Assembly: GCA_964058805.1 (NCBI GenBank)
Contig: CAXKVV010001751.1
Location: forward strand, 1 to 24,868
Length of the DNA stretch: 24,868 nucleotides
Direction: 5' to 3'
Origin: Schoenoplectus triqueter
Taxonomy: Eukaryota > Streptophyta > Magnoliopsida > Poales > Cyperaceae
This document shows positions 3,577 through 22,235 of this stretch, piece after piece. The notes under the pieces were generated by a model. That model had not been told where the DNA came from. It was given only the letters and a program-made list of their open reading frames with translations, and searched no databases. Both the position numbers and the translations under genes were made by a program. How positions within the stretch are numbered: position 1 is the stretch's first letter; each line of letters opens with the position of its first letter.

Positions 3577-3696
3577 GCTATTCCGACGAATGAATTTGCC
3601 AAACGAATTTTAGACTAAGTAGAAGAGTGCGAAATAGTGCTAATCCGGTATACCAACTTATAGGTGGAATACCGGATTAGCTCTCGTCGGAATAGC
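3577..3696. repeat. Nested inverted repeat (two hairpins, one inside the other)
   Basis: Outer arms GCTATTCCGACGA (3577-3589) and TCGTCGGAATAGC (3684-3696) are perfect complements. Inside them, GCTAATCCGGTAT (3639-3651) pairs with ATACCGGATTAGC (3669-3681). It lies immediately left of the AT-rich array. Confidence 0.75.
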
Positions 3697-4555
3697 GATT
3701 ATTATTTGATTATGATGTATTATATTATTATATTATGATTATGATTATGATTTAGTATTATTATATTATTATATTATATTTATGATTATAATTTATTATT
3801 ATATTAATATTATGATTATTATTTATTATTATCATTATATTATTATATTATTTATTATTATTATAAATATAATTTTAATATTATATTATTATATTATGAA
3901 TATAAATATTATTATTTTATTATTTTATTATTATGATCAAAATTATTTATTATTATATTATTATATTATGATTATGATTATTATTACTTATTATTATTTT
4001 ATTATGTTGTATTATATTATTATATGTTGATTATAGTCATGATTAATTTATTATTATATTATTATAATTATAATTATTTTTAATTATTTTTATGATTATG
4101 ATTATATTATTAAAATTATGATTACTTATTATTATTATATTATTATAATTATGATTGTAATTATAATTTATTATTATTATATTACTATATTATGATTATG
4201 TTTATATTTTTATTATATTATTATTTATTATGATTATTTTTTATTACTTTATTATTATTTTATTATGTTGTATTATATTATTATATTATGATTATATTAT
4301 TAAAATTATGATTACTTATTATTATTATATTATTATAATTATGATTGTAATTATAATTTTTATTATTATATTACTAAATTATGATTATGTTTATATTTTT
4401 ATTATATTACTATTATAATATTATTATTTATTATGATTATTTTTATTACTTTATTATTATTATTATATTACTATTATGATTATTATTTTACTATTATTAT
4501 TATTATTATTATTATTATTATCATCATTATTAGTATCATAATTATTCATATTTTA
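3697..4555. repeat. AT-rich TTA/TGATTA degenerate tandem array
   Basis: About 860 bp of ATT/TTA triplets interspersed with TGATTA units, almost without C on the + strand. Longer segments are duplicated: about 70 bp from 4101 recur from 4291 (offset 190), and ATTATGTTGT with its flank at 4001 recurs at 4262. The Ile/Tyr-only open frames in it are artefacts of the triplet repeat. Confidence 0.9.
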
Positions 4556-4704: not shown

Positions 4705-5526
4705 ATATACGCGCGCTTTGCAGCAGACTCTTTTATTTAAATATTAAAATATTATAAAACAAAAAAATACATTTATTTACTATTAAATTATAAATTCACC
4801 AAATTATAGAGAAACTTATAATAAAAACTATATTTAATTTTAGATGAGATTTTTGCACAATATGAGTTAATGATTCATGATTTTTATGACAAGAAAAATA
4901 AATTATTCTAACATATATTATCACCATTAATTTATTATCAAATATGCACAAAGTTGCTAAATAAAAAATAATATTATGGAAATAATAGTATAGATGGGAA
5001 AGAAATGGAGAGAAAGAGGAGATCAATGGACGCGATCACAAACGTTCGATCAACAAAAAATAAATATTATCCGTCTAATTGAGGGATAAAATAGGTATAA
5101 TAAAAAAATTACCATGTCAGAAAATGGACCCTCCAATTCTTAGATGCTTTATATAATAGTATAAATATGATTATTTATTCGTAAATAATTTATTTTTTAT
5201 CTATAACTTCATGTTTTATGAATAATTCATCAATTTAATATACAATATATTTTTTATTAAAAAATATTTTATTCACGAATTATTTGATAAAAAATACATT
5301 ATATATTATTTTATATAAAATTATATAATTTTAATATTTTATTATTATAATATATATTTTATTTATATTATATAAAATAAATTATTTTCGAATTATATTT
5401 CGATTACATTCCAACTCAAATTTTTGACCTCACGAATACTTTTTCAAATCACGGACTTACCATCACGAGGGATTCTCGGCTGTTCGCGAAGCAATAAGAC
5501 CGACTGTGGCCCTGTGAGGCGTGAAT
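4705..5526. other. AT-rich intergenic DNA upstream of the PPR gene
   Basis: Nothing coding seen. 5160-5400 is extremely AT-rich with short partial palindromes. From about 5424 the composition becomes balanced, so the PPR promoter and 5' UTR probably lie at about 5400-5595. No TATA box can be placed with confidence. Confidence 0.4.
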
Positions 5527-11511: not shown

Positions 11512-12239
11512 AGGCAAAATTGAGTATATACTTCTCAATACATCTTAATTTGGATATTTACCCTTTCAAATTTAAAAATTAGCTATTTATCCCTGAAGAT
11601 GTCAAAACTTTGGATATTTACCTATAACTAGTATTAACGTCATAATCAATACTTAATTAAAATTATAATAAGATAAAAATCCCCCTTCTGATGATTCAAG
11701 ATATTTTTTATTTATACATTAATCTTCTTGTTAATTTAATTACTTTAGCGATGCATAAAATTATCACAAAATCATAATTATGGAACTATTTTTATCGCTA
11801 TCAATACCAATCTCATTGGGTATGCACTAATTATTGACAGTTCTAATTTATATCAGTTTTGGATTGTGTCAATTCTAGTTCGTAGAAATTTATTATTTTA
11901 TTTGAGGTTGCATTTGCACATAGTTGGGGCTCAAGGAAAGAGAGCAAAGGTAAGTAGCAATATAACATCAATACAATGTGCATAGCAAAATAAAATAATT
12001 CAATGCACAATCGTTAATTTTGTTGCGATGCAAGTTGTATGGATGATGAAAGAATATATAGGGGTATTTTTCTATTATAATTTTAATTTATTATTAATTT
12101 GATTTTTATGAAAATAATACTAGTTATGGGTAAATATCCAAACTTTTGACATTTTCACGGATAAATACCCAATTTTCAAATTTGAAAAGATAAATATCCA
12201 AATTGGGACGTGTTGAGGGGTATATATCCAATTTTGCCT
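11512..12239. mobile_element. Long-TIR non-autonomous element (728 bp), Mutator-like
   Basis: The left arm starts AGGCAAAATTG and contains AATTTGGATATTTACC and ATAACTAGTATT. The right arm is its inverted copy, ending ATATCCAATTTTGCCT. The arms align over about 125 bp with about 85-90% match by eye. The core is AT-rich and non-coding. A clean target duplication was not found by eye. Confidence 0.75.
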
Positions 12240-13537: not shown

Positions 13538-13540
13538 TCT

Positions 13541-13967
13541 ATATATATATAGAGTCTGACTATGGTATTTTGCAAAGTACAGAGACATTTTGTTATTTGC
13601 GCTCTATTTTTAATTTCAAGTCAGAAATAATCGATTAAAACAGTTCAATTTAATATTCATATCAAAATCTATTAGTAAATCAAATTATATATTTTTTTAA
13701 ATTTTTTTGCTATTTTTTCTGATAAAGAAAATGACTTGATCTGAGATTTCTGTTTCATCCAAAAATGATAATTTTCCTCCTATAAAAAAATAGCAAATGA
13801 ATTCTAAAAAAATATAAAATTTAGTTTACTAATAGATTTTGATATGGAGATTAGATTGAGCAGTTTGAATCAATCATTTCTGACTTAAAATTAATAATAG
13901 AGCGCAAAACACACAACACTTTTGTGCTTTACAAAGTACAATAACCTAATTCTATATATATATAGAG
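13541..13967. mobile_element. Foldback/MITE-like element 3, flanked by TA repeats
   Basis: The left end, TA tract then GAGTCTGACTATGGT and TTTTGCAAAGTAC, pairs with the right end GTGCTTTACAAAGTAC..CCTAATTC then a TA tract. Arms of about 150 bp carry TTCATATCAAAATCTATTAG and its complement CTAATAGATTTTGATATGGA. The shared internal words show that it belongs with element 1 at 2071-2500. No coding content. Confidence 0.75.
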
Positions 13968-16246: not shown

Positions 16247-16251
16247 CTATT
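16247..16251. repeat. Target-site duplication, left copy (CTATT)
   Basis: Five bases directly before the 5' LTR, identical to the five bases directly after the 3' LTR. Confidence 0.9.
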
Positions 16252-16526
16252 TGTTATAATATTAATGATAGATGTTTCACCTCCTCCACCTCCTCTCATT
16301 CCTCCACCTCCTCTCATAATAATAGAAGTTTTTCATTCTCTTCACCTTCTCCTTAACTCTAGATTTAATTTTGTATTAATTTTCTCTTTTATTACATGAT
16401 GTTTCTCTAGCCTATAAATAGAGGCTTGTATGTTGTTGATGGTAATATAAAATCTTTAGATGAGATAATATAGAAATAAGATTTTAGCCTCTCACAACTT
16501 TTGTCTTCTATCTTTATTTTATAACA
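16252..16526 (+). repeat. 5' LTR (275 bp)
   Basis: It begins TGTTATAA and ends TTATAACA, a perfect 8-bp terminal inverted repeat with TG..CA ends. It holds a TATA box at 16413-16420 and an 18-bp CT-rich tandem duplication at 16283-16318. No difference from the 3' LTR found by eye. Confidence 0.97.
16413..16420 (+). promoter_or_regulatory. LTR promoter TATA box
   Basis: TATAAATA followed by GAGGC, the standard plant TATA consensus, 107 bp before the LTR end. The same site in the 3' LTR is 22117-22124. Confidence 0.7.
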
Positions 16527-16527
16527 C

Positions 16528-16540
16528 GTTATCAGCACGA
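16528..16540 (+). promoter_or_regulatory. Candidate primer-binding site
   Basis: GTTATCAGCACGA begins one base after the 5' LTR. Plant copia elements often have this sequence type here, thought to pair with an internal part of initiator-Met tRNA (recalled family knowledge). It is not the standard 3'-end TGGTATCAGAGC site. Confidence 0.6.
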
Positions 16541-16783
16541 CTTCGCTCTAATCGAGTTGTGACGGAAGTTTATTTTATAGTAGAAGCACAAGATCGACAT
16601 AATCAGATTATCGTAAGATTGTCTCTAAAAAGAGGTACACTTTATATTAAATTTTATTATTTTACCATTAATTATAATATTTATTTTCTTGATGAAATTG
16701 TTCTTATATTGGATGAGACTAATATTTTCATTCCCCGAAGAGAATGATAAAATAAGTAAATACCAGAATTTTTATTTATTTAT

Positions 16784-17004
16784 TCAATAACCAGAAGTTA
16801 TTGATACTTTTAATGGCCAGAAGTCATTGTATTTGATAATTAAAAGTTTTATCAAAATGAGTTACAATTGATAACCCGAAGTTATCGATATACTTAATAA
16901 CCGGAAGTTATTCAACTAAAATGGTAACCAAAAGTTATCAATTAGATAGATAAATAAATAAATATAATGTCTCTAATTTTTTTTTAATGACCTGAAGTTA
17001 TTAA
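16784..17004 (+). repeat. Leader hairpin array: seven stem-loops with a constant CCNRAAGT loop core
   Basis: Copies (arm/arm): TCAATAAC/GTTATTGA 16784-16804; AATGGC/GTCATT 16812-16828; TTTGATAA/TTATCAAA 16832-16856; GATAAC/GTTATC 16870-16886; AATAAC/GTTATT 16896-16912; TGGTAAC/GTTATCA 16922-16940; TTAATGAC/GTTATTAA 16984-17004. Six of the seven have a 5-base loop CNRAA, or CCNRAAGT if the closing C-G pair and its neighbours are included. Stem changes are compensated or G-U. A weaker copy may lie at 16758-16775. Confidence 0.8.
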
Positions 17005-17088
17005 TATTCTTTTTCTTTAGTAATTTTCATAAATGGATGTTCGATTAAATTTATTAAATATTAGTAGTATTTTTATTTTGTAGTCCTT

Positions 17089-18105
17089 ATGGCAAATCTT
17101 ACTAAACTTGAATTCGTTGCCCTTGATATATCGGGCAAGAACTATCTCCCATGGACTCTCGATGCTGAGATTCATCTTACCGCAAATAATCTTGGAGATA
17201 CAATAAAAGATGAAAATAAGGCCTCCCCGCAGGAGAAAGCCAAAGCAATGATATTCCTCCGTCATCATCTCCATGAGGATTTAAAAACTGAATATTTAAC
17301 GGTGAAAGATCCGTTAGAATTATGGAAAAATTTAAAAGAAAGATATGACCATCAAAAACAAGTGCTCCTCCCAAAAGCTCGTTATGAATGGATTCATTTA
17401 AGGTTGCAAGATTTTAAATCTGTGGGTGAATATAATTCCGCAATGTTTCGCATAACTTCTGAGTTAAAATTATGCGGAGAAAAGATTACTGATGAAGACA
17501 TGTTAGAAAAAACATTTTCCACATTTCATGCTTCGAATTTGCTCCTGCAGCAGCAATATCGGGAGCGTGGTTTTAAAAAATATTCAGAATTGATATCATG
17601 TCTTCTTGTTGCGGAACAAAATTATGAGCTTCTCATGAAAAATCATCAATCACGGCCCACTGGCTCTAGTCCATTTCCTGAAGCAAATGCGACATCATTC
17701 CCTGAAGCGAATGCAACATCATTTAAAGGAAATCGTGGTCGAGGACGTGGTCGCGGCCCCAAAAGAGGTCGTGGACGTGGTCGCAATAATGTTTGGCGAC
17801 GTGAAGGTCATAATTTCAAATCAAATGACAACAATGCGGGGAGATATGAAAAGGAAAAGAATTCAACATCTTCTAAAAAGTTTGAAAGTAGTTGTTATAG
17901 ATGTGGTATGACAAACCATTGGTCACGCACATGTCGTACTCCTAAACATTTAGTTGAACTTTATCAAGCATCCATCAAGAAAAAGGGAAAAGAAGTAGAA
18001 ACAAATTTTATTGAAAATGAGTCAAGTGATTTACTCATGGATACACACCTAGATGTTTCTGATTTCTTTGAGAATGTTGATAAAGAAATAAATATTATGA
18101 GCTAA
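17089..18105 (+). CDS. Copia Gag (capsid-nucleocapsid) protein
   Basis: 338 residues. Residues 1 to about 190 form a UBN2-type copia Gag/capsid domain: it starts MANLTKLEFVALDISGKNYLPW and continues through DPLELWKNLKERYDH and SVGEYNSAMFRITSELKLCG. An 8-residue duplication FPEANATS lies at 196-203 and 204-211. An RG-rich basic stretch (215-232) follows, then a CCHC zinc knuckle C269-X2-C272-X4-H277-X4-C282, for RNA binding and packaging. The C-terminus is acidic. It forms cytoplasmic virus-like particles that package the element RNA. The leader before it holds many ATG codons, so simple scanning from the LTR would be inefficient. It ends at its own TAA, separate from pol, unlike the single gag-pol frame of many copia elements. 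Confidence 0.95.
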   Translation: MANLTKLEFVALDISGKNYLPWTLDAEIHLTANNLGDTIKDENKASPQEKAKAMIFLRHHLHEDLKTEYLTVKDPLELWKNLKERYDHQKQVLLPKARYEWIHLRLQDFKSVGEYNSAMFRITSELKLCGEKITDEDMLEKTFSTFHASNLLLQQQYRERGFKKYSELISCLLVAEQNYELLMKNHQSRPTGSSPFPEANATSFPEANATSFKGNRGRGRGRGPKRGRGRGRNNVWRREGHNFKSNDNNAGRYEKEKNSTSSKKFESSCYRCGMTNHWSRTCRTPKHLVELYQASIKKKGKEVETNFIENESSDLLMDTHLDVSDFFENVDKEINIMS

Positions 18106-18135
18106 GTTTTTTTTATTTTAATTCAGTTTTATGTT

Positions 18136-18208
18136 GTAAGTTTATGTTTCTCATGAATAAAATTAGTTTCTTTAATTTTGATCTTGTATATTTTTTTTTT
18201 GTTCAAAG
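18136..18208 (+). other. Intron-like spacer between gag and pol
   Basis: 73 bases beginning GTAAGT (18136-18141, a perfect plant donor) and ending with T10 then GTTCAAAG (AG at 18207-18208), just before the pol start region. It lies after the gag stop, so splicing would not fuse the frames. It could serve a spliced pol transcript. Chance T-rich spacer remains possible. Confidence 0.35.
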
Positions 18209-18218
18209 GAAAAAGAAT

Positions 18219-18350
18219 ATGATTGAAGGCTCCAGCAGAGCAATGACAAGTATTAGAGATGAATGTCTAGTAGACAGTGGAACAACAAACACAATATTAA
18301 AAAGCAAAAAAATATTTTTCTCAATTGTCTCCTGTAGAGACACATGTTAA
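18219..18350 (+). pseudogene. Copia pol, protease segment up to the frame break
   Basis: The frame opens at ATG 18219 and includes the aspartic-protease signature VDSGTTNTIL, with its catalytic Asp at 18273-18275. It then meets an A7 run (18306-18312), after which the homologous reading continues in the next frame (18325 onward). This frame itself ends at TAA 18348-18350. The break separates the protease active-site half from its C-terminal half and the rest of pol. Given matching LTRs it is either a recent mutation or a homopolymer sequencing error. Confidence 0.8.
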
Positions 18351-21300
18351 TACAATTTCTGGTATTAGTAACTTAATTGAAGGCTCTGGAAGAGCTTGTA
18401 TTTTGTTATCAAAAGGAACAAAATTAATTATAAATGACGCATTATACTCTAGTAAATCCAGAAGAAATTTACTAAGTTTTAAAGATATTCGGTGTAATGG
18501 TTATCATATCAAAACCATGACTGAAAATAACATTGAATATCTTCAAATTACAATGATTAAATATGGTCGGAAGATCATATTGGAAAAGATGAAAGCTTTA
18601 TCATCTGGACTATATTGTATGAACATAAGTTCAATAGAATCAAATATGGTCAGTAACCAGAAGTTGCATGACACAAAAATGTTTACTCTGTGGCATGACA
18701 GGTTAGGTCATCCAGGTAACATTATGATGAGGAGAATAATTGAAAGTGCAAATGGGCATCCTCTAAAGGACCTGAAGATCCTATTATCAAAAGATTTATC
18801 ATGTGCAGCATGCTCTCTTGGAAAATTGATAATTAGGCCATTTAAAAATAAAATTGAAAATGAATCTCCTTTATTTTTAGAGAGAATTCAAGGAGACATT
18901 TGTGGGCCTATTTCTCCTCCATGTGGACCATTTAGATATTTTATGGTTTTAATTGATGCATCAACTCGATGGTCACATGTTTGCCTATTAGCTACAAGAA
19001 ATGTTGCATTTGCTAGGCTATTAGCACAAATAATCCAATTAAGAGCAAATTTTCCGGATTACCAAATTAAGAGTATCCGGCTTGATAATGCAGGAGAATT
19101 TACATCTCAGTCTTTTAATGATTATTGTATGTCAATTGGGATTAAGGTAGAACATCCAGTTGCTCATGTACATACACAAAATGGTTTAGCTGAATCATTA
19201 ATTAAAAGATTACAACTGATTGCTAGACCGTTACTTATGAAATGTAATCTACCATCTTCTGCATGGGGACATACCATATTACATGCTGCTGCACTTATTA
19301 GATTAAGACCAACTGCATCTCATAAATTTTCTCCATTACAATTGGTCTCTGGAAGAGAACCAAACTTGTCCCATCTTAAAATTTTTGGTTGTGCTGTGTA
19401 TGTTCCAATTTCTCCTCCACAACGCACAAAAATGGGACCACAGAGGAGATTAGGAATTTATATTGGTTTTCACTCTCCATCAATTATTAAATATTTAGAA
19501 CCATTAACTGGAGATGTTTTTACAGCTCGTTTTGCTGATTGTCAATTTGATGAGATAATATTCCCAATCTTAGGGGGAGAAAAAGAAAAGCTGGAAAAAC
19601 AAGTAACTTGGAATGCATCATCAATATCTTATCTTGATTCCCGGAGTGGTCAATGTGAACTGGAAGTTCAAAAGATTATACATTTGCAAAGAATAGCAAA
19701 TGAGTTACCAGATGCATTTACAGATACAAAAAGAGTGACTAAATCACATATACCAGCTTTAAATGCACCTGCTCGAATTGAAATAACCCCAGCAGAGGTT
19801 ACTATACAAAGAAAACGTGGAAGACCAATCGGTTCCAAAGACAAAAATCCACGAAAAATGAAAGAGCAGAATAATGCAGTTGGTGTAACTTCAGCAAAAG
19901 TTACCGATAAAATCCCAGAAGAGATTGTCAATAAAATCCCAGAAGAGATTGGAAGTAGAACCCTAGAAGAGGTCGTTGATAAAGTTCCAGAAGAAACTCA
20001 GGCACCGAATGATTATGAGATCTCAATAAATTATGTACAGAATGGTATAATATGGAACCGAAATGAAACACGTATTGATGAAATTTTTGCATATGCTATA
20101 GCAATTGAAGTGATAAATGAGGAAGATTATGTGCCAAAAACTCCAGAAGAGTGTATGCACAGAAATGATTGGCCAAAATGGAAAGATGCCATGAAGGCTG
20201 AATTAGATTCGCTTGAAAAGCAAAATGTTTTTGGACCTATAATTCTAACCCCTAAAAATGTTAACCCTGTAGGTTACAAGTGGGTTTTTGCAATAAAAAG
20301 AAATGAGAAAAATGAGATTGTGAGATATAAAGCAAGGCTGGTGGCACAAGGTTTTACACAAATACCAGGAGTTGATTATGAAGAAACGTATTCACCTGTA
20401 GTGGATGCAATAACTCTTCGATTTTTAATCAGTCTCGCAATCACTGAGAACCTTCAAATGCGTCTCATGGATGTTGTCACAGCTTATTTGTATGGATCAC
20501 TCGATAATGATATCTATATGAAAGTCCCTGAAGGATTAAAAATGTCTGAAGCATTTACATCAAAATCTCGAGAAATGTATTCTATAAAGTTAAAACGATC
20601 ATTGTATGGACTAAAACAATCAGGTCGAATGTGGTATAATCGACTCAGTGAATATCTCATAAAAGAAGGATATAAATCTAATATAATTAGTCCATGTGTT
20701 TTTATTAAACGATCAATCTCGAGTTTTATAATTATTGCAGTATATGTTGATGACCTGAATATCATTGGGTCTCCTGAAGAGATCGAAAAGACTGCAAAAT
20801 TATTAAAGAATGAATTTGAAATGAAAGATCTTGGTGTAACAAAGTTGTGCCTCGGCCTACAGATCGAGCATTTGCATAATGGTATATTTGTCCATCAATC
20901 AAACTACATCCAGAAGATGTTGAAACGTTTTAATATGGACAAAGCTCATCCTCTAAGTACACCAATGGTTGTCCGATCACTTGATGTGAAAAAAGATCCT
21001 TATCGGCCCCGAGAAAATAATGAAAAAGCTCTTGGTCCTGAAGTACCATACTTAAGTGCAATTGGGGCTTTGATGTATCTTGCTAATAATACGAGACCTG
21101 ATATTGCTTTTTCTGTAAATGTATTAGCAAGATATAGTTCTGATCCAACACGCCGACATTGGAACGGAATCAAACATGTATTACGTTACCTTTGTGGGAC
21201 ACGTGATATGGGACTATTTTATCGAAAAAATACAAAGTCCAAACTAGTTGGATATGCAGATGCAGGATATTTATCAGATCCGCATAAAGCTCGGTCACAA

Positions 21301-21744
21301 TCCGGATATGTGTTTACATATGGCGGCACTGCAATTTCATGGCGATCAACAAAGCAAACATTGACAGCAACATCATCAAATCATGCTGAATTAATTGCTC
21401 TTTATGATGCTGGACGGGAATGTGTATGGTTAAGATCCATGATCCAACACATCCAAGAGGAATGTGGTCTCGAGACAGTCAGAGAAAACCCGACGGTGAT
21501 ATACGAAGATAATACTGCATGCATTGCTCAAATCAAAGAAGGATATATCAAAGGTGACAGAACCAAACACATCTCGCCGAAGTTCTTCTCAACACATGAC
21601 TTACAGAAGAATGGTTTGATAAATATTTGTCAAATCAGATCAAGCGATAATTTGGCGGACTTATTCACAAAATCATTGCCAAGAAATATTTTTGAGCAGC
21701 TTTCACATAAAATTGGCATTCGTCACTTAAAAGATGTACGTTAA
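18325..21744 (+). CDS. Copia Pol: protease end, integrase, reverse transcriptase, RNase H
   Basis: The frame is open for 1,139 codons; its first codon is TTG, because the true start lies upstream of the break. A protease remainder and pre-integrase region come first. The integrase zinc site is H124-X4-H129-X30-C160-X2-C163. The catalytic triad is D191, D254 and E290, with the D-X35-E spacing. A basic RKRGRPIGSKDK stretch (496-507) and four 8-residue repeats (529-560) form the linker. Reverse transcriptase has D716 (MDVVTAYLYG) and the YVDD box at 807-810. RNase H has D979, E1022 and D1062. Stop TAA 21742-21744. All key catalytic residues are present, so apart from the upstream frame break the enzyme looks functional. 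It copies element RNA into cDNA in particles and inserts it into the genome. Confidence 0.96.
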   Translation: MSPVETHVNTISGISNLIEGSGRACILLSKGTKLIINDALYSSKSRRNLLSFKDIRCNGYHIKTMTENNIEYLQITMIKYGRKIILEKMKALSSGLYCMNISSIESNMVSNQKLHDTKMFTLWHDRLGHPGNIMMRRIIESANGHPLKDLKILLSKDLSCAACSLGKLIIRPFKNKIENESPLFLERIQGDICGPISPPCGPFRYFMVLIDASTRWSHVCLLATRNVAFARLLAQIIQLRANFPDYQIKSIRLDNAGEFTSQSFNDYCMSIGIKVEHPVAHVHTQNGLAESLIKRLQLIARPLLMKCNLPSSAWGHTILHAAALIRLRPTASHKFSPLQLVSGREPNLSHLKIFGCAVYVPISPPQRTKMGPQRRLGIYIGFHSPSIIKYLEPLTGDVFTARFADCQFDEIIFPILGGEKEKLEKQVTWNASSISYLDSRSGQCELEVQKIIHLQRIANELPDAFTDTKRVTKSHIPALNAPARIEITPAEVTIQRKRGRPIGSKDKNPRKMKEQNNAVGVTSAKVTDKIPEEIVNKIPEEIGSRTLEEVVDKVPEETQAPNDYEISINYVQNGIIWNRNETRIDEIFAYAIAIEVINEEDYVPKTPEECMHRNDWPKWKDAMKAELDSLEKQNVFGPIILTPKNVNPVGYKWVFAIKRNEKNEIVRYKARLVAQGFTQIPGVDYEETYSPVVDAITLRFLISLAITENLQMRLMDVVTAYLYGSLDNDIYMKVPEGLKMSEAFTSKSREMYSIKLKRSLYGLKQSGRMWYNRLSEYLIKEGYKSNIISPCVFIKRSISSFIIIAVYVDDLNIIGSPEEIEKTAKLLKNEFEMKDLGVTKLCLGLQIEHLHNGIFVHQSNYIQKMLKRFNMDKAHPLSTPMVVRSLDVKKDPYRPRENNEKALGPEVPYLSAIGALMYLANNTRPDIAFSVNVLARYSSDPTRRHWNGIKHVLRYLCGTRDMGLFYRKNTKSKLVGYADAGYLSDPHKARSQSGYVFTYGGTAISWRSTKQTLTATSSNHAELIALYDAGRECVWLRSMIQHIQEECGLETVRENPTVIYEDNTACIAQIKEGYIKGDRTKHISPKFFSTHDLQKNGLINICQIRSSDNLADLFTKSLPRNIFEQLSHKIGIRHLKDVR

Positions 21745-21955
21745 AATGAGGGGGAGTATTATACACGTTGCACTCTTTTTCCCTTCACTAAGTTTTGTCC
21801 CATTGGGTTTTCTTAGTAAGGTTTTTAATGAGGCAACATAACTGATCCAGAAGTATCAGTTAAATCAAGTTGGTCCTGGAGTACCAAAATTTAATATTTG
21901 TCCAGTAGTACAATATTAATAGTGTATAATATAAGGCGAAACATCTAAGGGGGAG
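21745..21955 (+). other. Retrotransposon trailer with two polypurine tracts and a nested hairpin
   Basis: The true polypurine tract AAGGGGGAG (21947-21955) abuts the 3' LTR. A near copy, GAGGGGGAG (21748-21756), lies four bases after the pol stop. Between them, ACTAAG (21787-21792) pairs with CTTAGT (21812-21817) around CCCATTGGG (21799-21807). This CACTAAGTTTTGTCCCA-type segment recurs near the 3' end of many plant copia elements (recalled). Confidence 0.7.
21840..21917 (+). repeat. Trailer hairpins: three stem-loops with the leader-type loop
   Basis: AACTGAT/ATCAGTT around CCAGAAGT (21840-21861); TTGGT/ACCAA around CCTGGAGT (21870-21887); AATATTTGT/ACAATATT, one bulge, around CCAGTAGT (21893-21917). 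The stems are unrelated to each other but self-complementary. The loops are nearly the same as in the leader array. Confidence 0.75.
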
Positions 21956-22230
21956 TGTTATAATATTAATGATAGATGTTTCACCTCCTCCACCTCCTCT
22001 CATTCCTCCACCTCCTCTCATAATAATAGAAGTTTTTCATTCTCTTCACCTTCTCCTTAACTCTAGATTTAATTTTGTATTAATTTTCTCTTTTATTACA
22101 TGATGTTTCTCTAGCCTATAAATAGAGGCTTGTATGTTGTTGATGGTAATATAAAATCTTTAGATGAGATAATATAGAAATAAGATTTTAGCCTCTCACA
22201 ACTTTTGTCTTCTATCTTTATTTTATAACA
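21956..22230 (+). repeat. 3' LTR (275 bp)
   Basis: Same length and, as read by eye, same sequence as 16252-16526. It follows the polypurine tract directly. Terminal repeats TGTTATAA/TTATAACA are intact. Confidence 0.97.
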
Positions 22231-22235
22231 CTATT
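22231..22235. repeat. Target-site duplication, right copy (CTATT)
   Basis: Matches 16247-16251 and fixes the outer boundary of the insertion. Confidence 0.9.

Follow-up and report, generated by a model that had tools for sequence, protein, structure and literature searches.

About 35 hairpins with a common loop and varied stems are found in the copia element at positions 16252-22230 of the window (i.e., the whole analysed stretch of 24,868 nucleotides from Schoenoplectus triqueter, which constitutes one contig of an 82-Mb assembly in 2086 contigs). The loop reads C-Y-N-G-N-A-G, mostly CCNGAAG, and sits either on a plain stem or on a stem with a single 3' bulge. A preliminary description had reported seven inverted repeats in the leader of this element and had interpreted the paired changes in their stems as RNA structure under selection. 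The observation is real and larger than reported: the hairpins are not confined to the leader, but are also situated in gag, pol, and the 3' UTR. Judged by several lines of sequence comparison, the indication of RNA structure under selection is strong, as a second element (L121) exhibits the same loop on replaced stems, the hairpins are enriched in gag, pol, and the 3' UTR, and codon choice, compensatory changes at orthologous sites, and held-out covariance models point the same way. Packaging would be the most likely function of these hairpins.

Element anatomy and leader hairpins

The domains, the LTRs, and the primer site agree with the earlier reading as a copia element with an array between primer site and gag (Table 1). 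In pol, the domains gag_pre-integrs (95-167), rve (186-277), and RVT_2 (640-882) follow the order of Ty1/copia elements, and the primer site exhibits a single difference to the host tRNA-Ile(AAU) gene (L277), namely a C opposite position 34 (inosine). According to the available text of PMC6317226, a half-tRNA-Ile primer with inosine 34 is the mark of the Bianca lineage among plant LTR elements. The domain order, the half-tRNA-Ile primer, and a 5-bp target duplication (general for plant elements) are all present, and by its primer site the element can be assigned to the Bianca lineage of Ty1/copia. Past the primer site, the window (16527-16551) and L121 (5161-5272) are both complementary to the D-arm of the same tRNA-Ile, by CGCTCTAA in the window and by TCTAACCAA, which is repeated, in L121; this suggests an extended primer interaction in both elements. 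A pairing of the hairpin loops with the sequence after the primer site was dropped by inspection, since that sequence is explained by its complementarity to the tRNA D-arm.

Concerning Gag, 2454 matches were obtained; among the best 120 of these, the closest is from Carex rostrata (88%), and the named relatives belong to diverse flowering plants. The RG-rich stretch and the zinc knuckle previously attributed to Gag both exist, the latter of CCHC type, and are conserved across 44 aligned sequences (the Gag of the window and 43 of the 120 relatives listed). Horizontal transfer of the element was considered and dropped; the PPR gene that adjoins it has its nearest match in Rhynchospora (69%), which by itself indicates a host that is probably within or near the sedges. 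Within the gag-pol gap (18103-18325), gag closes at a stop; a protease-like DSG motif begins at about 18219 in a different frame, and at 18325 the gag frame is taken up again by the pol ORF. Elsewhere in the window, inverted repeats with arms of 72-167 nt (79-87% complementary), possibly MITE-like, are situated at 2081-2911, 11512-12239, and 13538-13966, and a long, degenerate TTA-rich repeat tract is found at 3677-4553.

Table 1. Parts of the copia element and its hairpins, with positions in the window
Feature	Position	Strand	Remarks
Target duplication CTATT, 5 bp	16247-16251 and 22231-22235		flanks both LTRs
5' LTR, TG...CA	16252-16526	+	identical to 3' LTR 21956-22230
Primer binding site CGTTATCAGCACGAC	16527-16541	+	complements anticodon region of host tRNA-Ile(AAU)
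CGCTCTAA	16544-16551	+	complements D-arm side of tRNA-Ile(AAU), by inspection
H0, bulged, TCATTC-C[CCGAA]G-a-GAATGA	16728-16747	+	leader; P 0.07, outcompeted in full-leader fold
H1 leader hairpin	16784-16804	+	pentaloop
H2 leader hairpin	16811-16829	+	pentaloop
H3 leader hairpin, 9-nt loop	16832-16856	+	diverged copy L037 has CCATAAG, nearer the common loop
H4 leader hairpin	16867-16889	+	pentaloop
H5 leader hairpin	16896-16912	+	P 0.34 in leader, 0.53 in longer stretch
H6 leader hairpin, loop CAAAA (CAGAA in most copies)	16922-16940	+	pentaloop
H7 leader hairpin	16984-17004	+	pentaloop
gag ORF	17089-18105	+	PF14223, RG-rich stretch, CCHC knuckle
gag hairpin, 3 bp (weak)	17223-17235	+	
gag hairpin, 3' bulge, loop CCTGCAG	17539-17556	+	
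gag hairpin CATTT-CCTGAAG-c-AAATG	17672-17689	+	
gag hairpin CATTC-CCTGAAG-c-GAATG	17696-17713	+	
gag-pol gap hairpin, 3 bp (weak)	18229-18241	+	
gag-pol gap hairpin, 3 bp (weak)	18264-18276	+	motif retained in L121
pol ORF	18325-21744	+	integrase precedes RT
Hairpin opening pol ORF, loop CCTGTAG	18326-18342	+	
pol hairpin	18381-18397	+	compensatory change at orthologous L121 site
pol hairpin, 8 bp, 2-nt 3' bulge	18450-18474	+	inner pairs compensated at orthologous L121 site
pol hairpin, loop TCGGAAG	18560-18581	+	
pol hairpin	18653-18667	+	
pol hairpin	18767-18782	+	G-C to A-U compensation in L121
pol hairpin, 3 bp (weak)	19346-19358	+	
pol hairpin	19656-19670	+	
pol hairpin, loop CCAGCAG	19784-19801	+	
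Second array, four bulged hairpins, 24-nt spacing	19911-19998	+	between integrase and RT domains
Second-array motifs	19915, 19939, 19963 (3 bp), 19987	+	
pol hairpin, 3 bp (weak)	20140-20152	+	
pol hairpin, loop CCTGTAG	20262-20276	+	
pol hairpin, loop CCTGTAG, 7 bp	20388-20408	+	
pol hairpin	20523-20537	+	
pol hairpin, loop TCTGAAG	20540-20556	+	
pol hairpin	20768-20784	+	
pol hairpin	20906-20920	+	
pol hairpin	21033-21048	+	same in L121, identical
3' UTR hairpin, 8 bp, 3' bulge	21839-21862	+	
3' UTR hairpin, variant loop CCTGGAG	21870-21887	+	
3' UTR hairpin, loop CCAGTAG	21898-21913	+	

Six of the seven leader repeats are pentaloop hairpins of the kind described before, whereas H3 possesses a different loop of 9 nt. 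The array starts earlier than was indicated, with the bulged H0. The loop is constant, as claimed, yet it had been given as CCNRAAGT, the last T of which is part of the stem. Among 2000 dinucleotide shuffles of the leader, none had more than 1 pentaloop hairpin with the described loop (mean 0.024), such that none reached six; when pentaloop hairpins with any one loop in common are counted, one mismatch being allowed, the leader contains 6 and the shuffles at most 4. The folding energy of the array is better than that of all 200 shuffles (z -3.44). Its antisense also folds well (z -2.15, with 3 of 200 shuffles as good), and the folding of the whole leader is unremarkable (z -1.35, 9 of 100 shuffles as good). 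In the leader context, H1, H2, H3, H4, H6, and H7 are predicted at P 0.51-0.96, and the prediction does not favour H0 and H5. Rfam 15 yielded no match at gathering score in the window, and none at E up to 5 in 16500-17100.

The stem pairs quoted in the preliminary description are right: across the six units, the third pair is A-U, G-C, or G-U and the sixth A-U or G-C, always paired. When the cognate arms were compared to all 720 re-assignments, 24, 16, and 46 of these were as good at 6, 7, and 8 bp, respectively, so that paired change among the six leader units, which had been set against simple duplication, is only modestly significant when they are taken alone.

The same genome contains 47 matches to the leader DNA (40 of 42 candidates scored). 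In an alignment of 35 leaders (A1, including that of the window; the most diverged, L037, with 74.5% identity over its best stretch), the covariation check that had been proposed gave a weak signal, with little variation among the copies: 97.1% of cells stay paired vs. 96.9% in shuffles, 42 of 500 of which reach that value, and for covariation the score is 0.044 vs. 0.041 (reached by 22 of 500). Changes on both sides affect 4 pairs and 5 cells. If the structure is slid by -3 columns, these numbers are 5 and 7, and 56.5% of cells are paired as compared to 97.1% for the true structure. On internal branches of the copy tree (parsimony), stems exhibit 19 changes at 118 sites and linkers 42 at 131 (0.161 vs. 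0.321 per site), while on terminal branches no stem constraint is visible (73 vs. 74 changes; 0.619 vs. 0.565 per site). Loops do not evolve more slowly among copies than linkers (0.477 and 0.977 changes per site on the two kinds of branches). The constancy of the loop thus holds between units, not as slow evolution among copies.

The 33 leaders in which both ends were found contain between 1 and 8 exact-motif hairpins each (stem 4 bp), and none in antisense. Array length differs by subfamily. The block containing H0 is duplicated in L030, L032, and L034-L036, and L014 possesses a duplicated H5, from which the array appears to grow by local duplication. The genome contains 34 occurrences of the double motif AACCNGAAGTT...AACCNGAAGTT (reversed control: 0), always on contigs with leader matches. 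For TTATCAGCACGA, six of 33 matches lie on contigs without leader matches (C79, C320, C620, C647, C1881, and C1940 of G000); these may be chance, because the reversed control matches 12 times in the genome.

Hairpins in gag, pol, and the 3' UTR

In a wider form (C-Y-N-G-A/C/T-A-G or TYNGAAG), the motif occurs in the window element 6 times in the leader, 4 in gag, 2 in the gag-pol gap, 22 in pol, and 2 in the 3' UTR. With a cut that also admits a 2-nt bulge, and as plain counts rather than against a base rate, 35 of the 36 occurrences are found on a stem of at least 3 bp (29 on at least 4 bp), as are 26 of 38 in L121, in which 12 of the 32 occurrences outside the array are without a 3-bp stem.

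For a stricter count, both arrays were left out, and CYNGAAG was required on a stem of at least 4 bp with a bulge of 0 or 1 base on the 3' side, the expected number being the rate over all other positions of the element. The thresholds of this count were picked after the arrays had been seen; the arrays are excluded from it, and the held-out matches in L121 (see below) are the cleaner test. Such stems are present at 14 of 18 sites in the window element (0.70 expected, P 4e-17) and at 10 of 21 in L121 (0.99 expected, P 1e-8). With Watson-Crick pairs only, 4-bp stems are still found at 10 of 18 (0.20 expected) and 9 of 21 sites (0.27 expected). At 5 bp or more, the numbers are 5 of 18 (0.30 expected) and 3 of 21 (0.44 expected). 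At 6 bp or more, no significant excess exists outside the arrays (window 1/18, P 0.12; L121 1/21, P 0.16), and the dispersed stems are therefore short. Among 892 comparable patterns, CYNGAAG ranks first in the two elements pooled (24/39), and its one-letter relatives CYNGTAG, TYNGAAG, and CYNGCAG rank second, third, and fifth.

The motif is nearly restricted to the sense strand: outside the arrays, the antisense strand of the window element contains no CYNGAAG site, and that of L121 contains two, one of them on a stem. Few stems were found in control DNA. The regions that precede distant gag relatives in the same genome (20 stretches) have them at 1 of 17 sites in sense and 1 of 10 in antisense, and the rest of the window at 0 of 5 sense and 0 of 4 antisense sites. 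In 80 of 155 further loci from viral contigs, 40 of 1721 sites have a stem (76 expected), and three copia-like records filed as plasmids (two of them 99.4% identical) have none at 9 sites, even at 3 bp.

Concerning the rules for loop and stem, the 39 CYNGAAG sites of both elements outside the arrays comprise 11 with a plain stem and 13 with a single 3' base, both enriched. A 2-nt 3' bulge (3/39, P 0.054) and a 1x1 mismatch (4/39, P 0.01) are less enriched, and 5' bulges are absent from these 39 sites. Within the loop, G at position 4, A at position 6 (other bases form 0 hairpins in 14 occurrences), and G at position 7 (1 in 11) are near-strict, whereas the first two positions show a preference for C. 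At position 3, the base is A, G, or U; C forms 0 of 3 hairpins outside the arrays, yet is present within them. Position 5 is mostly A, with U, C, and G forming hairpins in 5 of 8, 3 of 8, and 2 of 4 occurrences, respectively.

Comparison with a second element, L121

A profile scan of prokaryote genome contigs with the 44-row Gag alignment yielded one relative, L121 (NZ_QPKJ02000023.1), which is filed under Solirubrobacter. It is a copia element with 79% identity in gag over residues 1-175, 59% over residues 248-327, and 71% in the RT part. Its Gag piece has matches of up to 88%, and since the best named plants among these are Vitis and Cornus (83%), L121 is probably plant contamination from a eudicot in a bacterial assembly. 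A plant-type Gag is also present in protein P0139, filed under Corynebacterium sp. MC-13. The L121 contig apparently closes on itself via one LTR copy; beyond pol, a primer site lies at 5162 and is followed by a 65-nt unit in 3.7 copies.

The leader array of L121 comprises four bulged hairpins of the type CTCTT-C[CAGAA]G-c-AAGAG and three plain ones of the type AATAAAA-C[TAGAA]G-TTTTATT, the third of which has a closing G to A change. Loop and 3' bulge are alike in the arrays of the window element and L121, whereas the stems are different. The array stretch of L121 surpasses 99 of 100 shuffles in folding energy (z -2.24), while the remaining 129 nt of the leader have a folding z of 0.30 and no hairpin of the array kind. 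When the plain units of L121 are added to those of the window (LB2, which equals LB1 in sequence, being dropped beforehand), the pairing of cognate arms is matched by 0.09-0.2% of 100,000 permutations.

The pairwise alignment of the two elements comprises 4500 aligned bases, 69% of which are identical. For the wider motif, 13 of the 28 coding-stretch occurrences of the window are kept at the position in L121, 13 are not, and 2 are without an aligned base, so that hairpin sites seem to turn over between the two elements. Where both possess the motif (12 sites with a stem of 3 bp), 21 stem pairs have changed: 8 are double changes with pairing kept, 4 are one-sided, and 9 are broken. Double compensatory changes are enriched, with 8 of 21 changed pairs at motif sites vs. 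67 of 816 at non-motif stems of the same stretch (Fisher P 2e-4), and 5 of 15 vs. 73 of 903 in the reverse direction (P 0.006). When stems must have 4 bp or more, the numbers are 7 of 19 vs. 30 of 397 and, weak in the reverse direction, 2 of 11 vs. 46 of 493. Stem mismatches lean to G-U over A-C (5 to 1 and 9 to 3, both small numbers).

Covariance models trained on window hairpins only (15 plain, 12 bulged) gave 14 and 17 matches in L121 at E up to 1, all in sense and at 24 distinct places, with best E-values of 7e-4 and 5e-4; 3 and 4 of them fall in the leader array. Applied to 65 kb of control DNA, which comprises the 20 stretches and three records, the same models gave 12 and 9 matches (E up to 10) on both strands, about as expected by chance, with best E-values of 1.2 and 1.6. 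In the window at E up to 1, model R1 has 19 matches, all sense and one of them outside the element (414), and R2 has 21, including three weak antisense ones outside the element; these are mostly training sites, and E-values are rough for such short models. The alignments A5 and A6 exhibit high pairing partly by construction, because they were selected for paired stems (A6 omits one of the 28 chosen hairpins, 19934 having the same letters as 19910).

Viral contigs contained no relatives when searched by gag, the gag alignment, pol, and the RT alignment. The double motif is present in at least 120 stretches and the primer-site pattern in 35, and L121 is the only one of these 156 loci (itself included) with a coding sequence for a gag or RT relative; the regular motif spacing in the other loci suggests coding repeats. 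With pol, three distant records were found among plasmids and none among phages. Two of the former, L278 (NZ_CP115454.1) and the near-identical L279 (NZ_CP115302.1), are bacterial 'plasmid' records with a copia-type RT and the look of a plant retrotransposon. In both, the RT ORF is followed (at 3828-4219 in L278) by a hairpin array with varied stems and a constant AAGAGTT-like loop, unlike CCNGAAG; other copia lineages may have constant loops of their own. The third, L280 (NC_015657.1, a Protofrankia 'plasmid'), is 5.4 kb long, has a pol of copia type (25% identity, 42% of the query covered), and is possibly plant DNA in a bacterial assembly.

Function of the hairpins

Retroviral packaging regions comprise several leader hairpins which are read by nucleocapsid zinc knuckles. 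The hairpins studied here share with them the leader position between primer site and gag and a Gag with a CCHC knuckle; they differ in that one loop recurs many times, coding RNA included. Multiple dispersed packaging signals are described for ssRNA viruses (MS2 and others) in the available text of PMC6281560, which only speculates on Gag-like proteins. As in that account, many stem-loops with a common loop and varied stems lie along the genomic RNA, and MS2 likewise combines a loop motif with one bulged base (PMC6281560, same text). In contrast to MS2, the host of the signal is an LTR retrotransposon, the bulge is situated on the 3' and not on the 5' side, and the loop is C-YNGNA-G.

Within plant copia elements, barley BARE is reported to possess conserved signals for dimerisation and packaging (PMC3735527), but the available text of that paper contains no occurrence of hairpin or stem-loop and no repeated constant-loop hairpins. 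Sireviruses likewise have repeated dyad-symmetric motifs in non-coding copia DNA, among them palindromic repeats of the LTRs; according to the portion of PMC2829016 at hand, these motifs are situated either upstream of the TATA box or close to env, have in most cases a CGG-CCG core, and are interpreted as elements of the DNA. No leader or dispersed hairpins in Bianca elements were found among the titles and abstract openings listed, mostly from outside subscription journals, and a term search of a 2025 review of the life cycle of plant LTR elements (PMC12786077) gave no occurrence of hairpin or stem-loop in its available text.

Since sense, loop-constant, and stem-variable hairpins spread over the packaged RNA resemble multivalent packaging signals, we consider it rather probable, on the basis of two elements, that the dispersed hairpins are packaging-type signals bound by Gag. 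The genomic RNA would display about 35 hairpins with an apical C-[YNGNA]-G loop, dense from the primer site to gag, with a second cluster at integrase/RT and the rest over gag, pol, and the 3' UTR. The RNA-binding tail of Gag (RG-rich stretch and CCHC knuckle) would read the loop, many weak sites would jointly select full-length RNA and promote particle assembly, and the leader array might serve as a dense starting point for assembly. Nucleocapsid and LIN28 proteins use their zinc knuckles to recognise hairpin loops that contain G and conform to NGNNG, a type which the NGNAG loop found here would presumably fit.

The main rival is a host RNA-binding protein as the ligand instead of Gag, acting in export, stability, translation control, or granule targeting. 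The structural evidence fits it equally, and special translation handling is plausible because the leader contains 10 upstream ATGs before gag; however, a spread over the whole RNA is superfluous for translation control, and motif hairpins are absent from other copia-like DNA (1/17 sense sites in the same-genome stretches, 0/9 in the plasmid-filed records), such that an element-specific ligand suits better, and we regard a host ligand as unlikely, if still worth serious consideration. The lack of need for a conserved loop bears on another reading, in which no specific protein ligand is involved and structure protects the RNA or aids its dimerisation or template switching: the many stems distributed over the RNA would serve this purpose, but neither protection nor kissing needs a conserved, single-stranded, non-self-complementary loop, and this reading is very improbable.

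Much the same low probability applies to a repeated cis-element at the DNA level, e.g., a transcriptional enhancer in the leader. Drosophila copia reportedly has such an enhancer in its leader. Copia elements are known to contain dyad-symmetric repeats close to the promoter (PMC2829016, as far as its available text goes), yet the motif is almost sense-only and also lies in pol and the 3' UTR, not as a strand-independent element near the promoter, and stems are replaced with pairing kept and with mismatches that favour, in small numbers, G-U over A-C. The hairpins might finally be a by-product of protein repeats (e.g., IPEEI, PFPEANA) and tandem duplication, without RNA function, and array length does vary among subfamilies by duplication. 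When synonymous codons were enumerated and weighted by the element's own usage, 3.9 of the 17 coding CYNGAAG sites were expected to be paired, as compared to about 0.7 (4%) from the position-based rate, so that amino acids explain part of the excess. Observed are 13, however (P 3e-7), and each of the three frames contains paired sites; in pol, frame 0 accounts for 13 of the 19 motif starts and each other frame for 3. Hairpins also exist outside coding DNA (leader, gag-pol gap, and 3' UTR), and both elements follow one rule for loop and bulge whether their DNA is coding or not, all of which makes a mere by-product hardly credible.

Returning to multivalent Gag signals, the chances are about even for the more inclusive proposal that Bianca elements of a sedge-like monocot and a probable eudicot carry a code of constant-loop hairpins from the leader to the 3' UTR, which acts through Gag and constrains the choice of codons and amino acids. 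Little is known, especially for plants, about how LTR retrotransposons select their own RNA. A seven-base loop in about 35 copies within one element constitutes a testable signal and a bait for Gag-binding assays, and it raises the question of whether assembly mediated by packaging signals, known in ssRNA viruses, operates in retroelements. Part of gag and pol would evolve under RNA constraint, and the loop may provide a sequence handle by which Bianca elements can be recognised.
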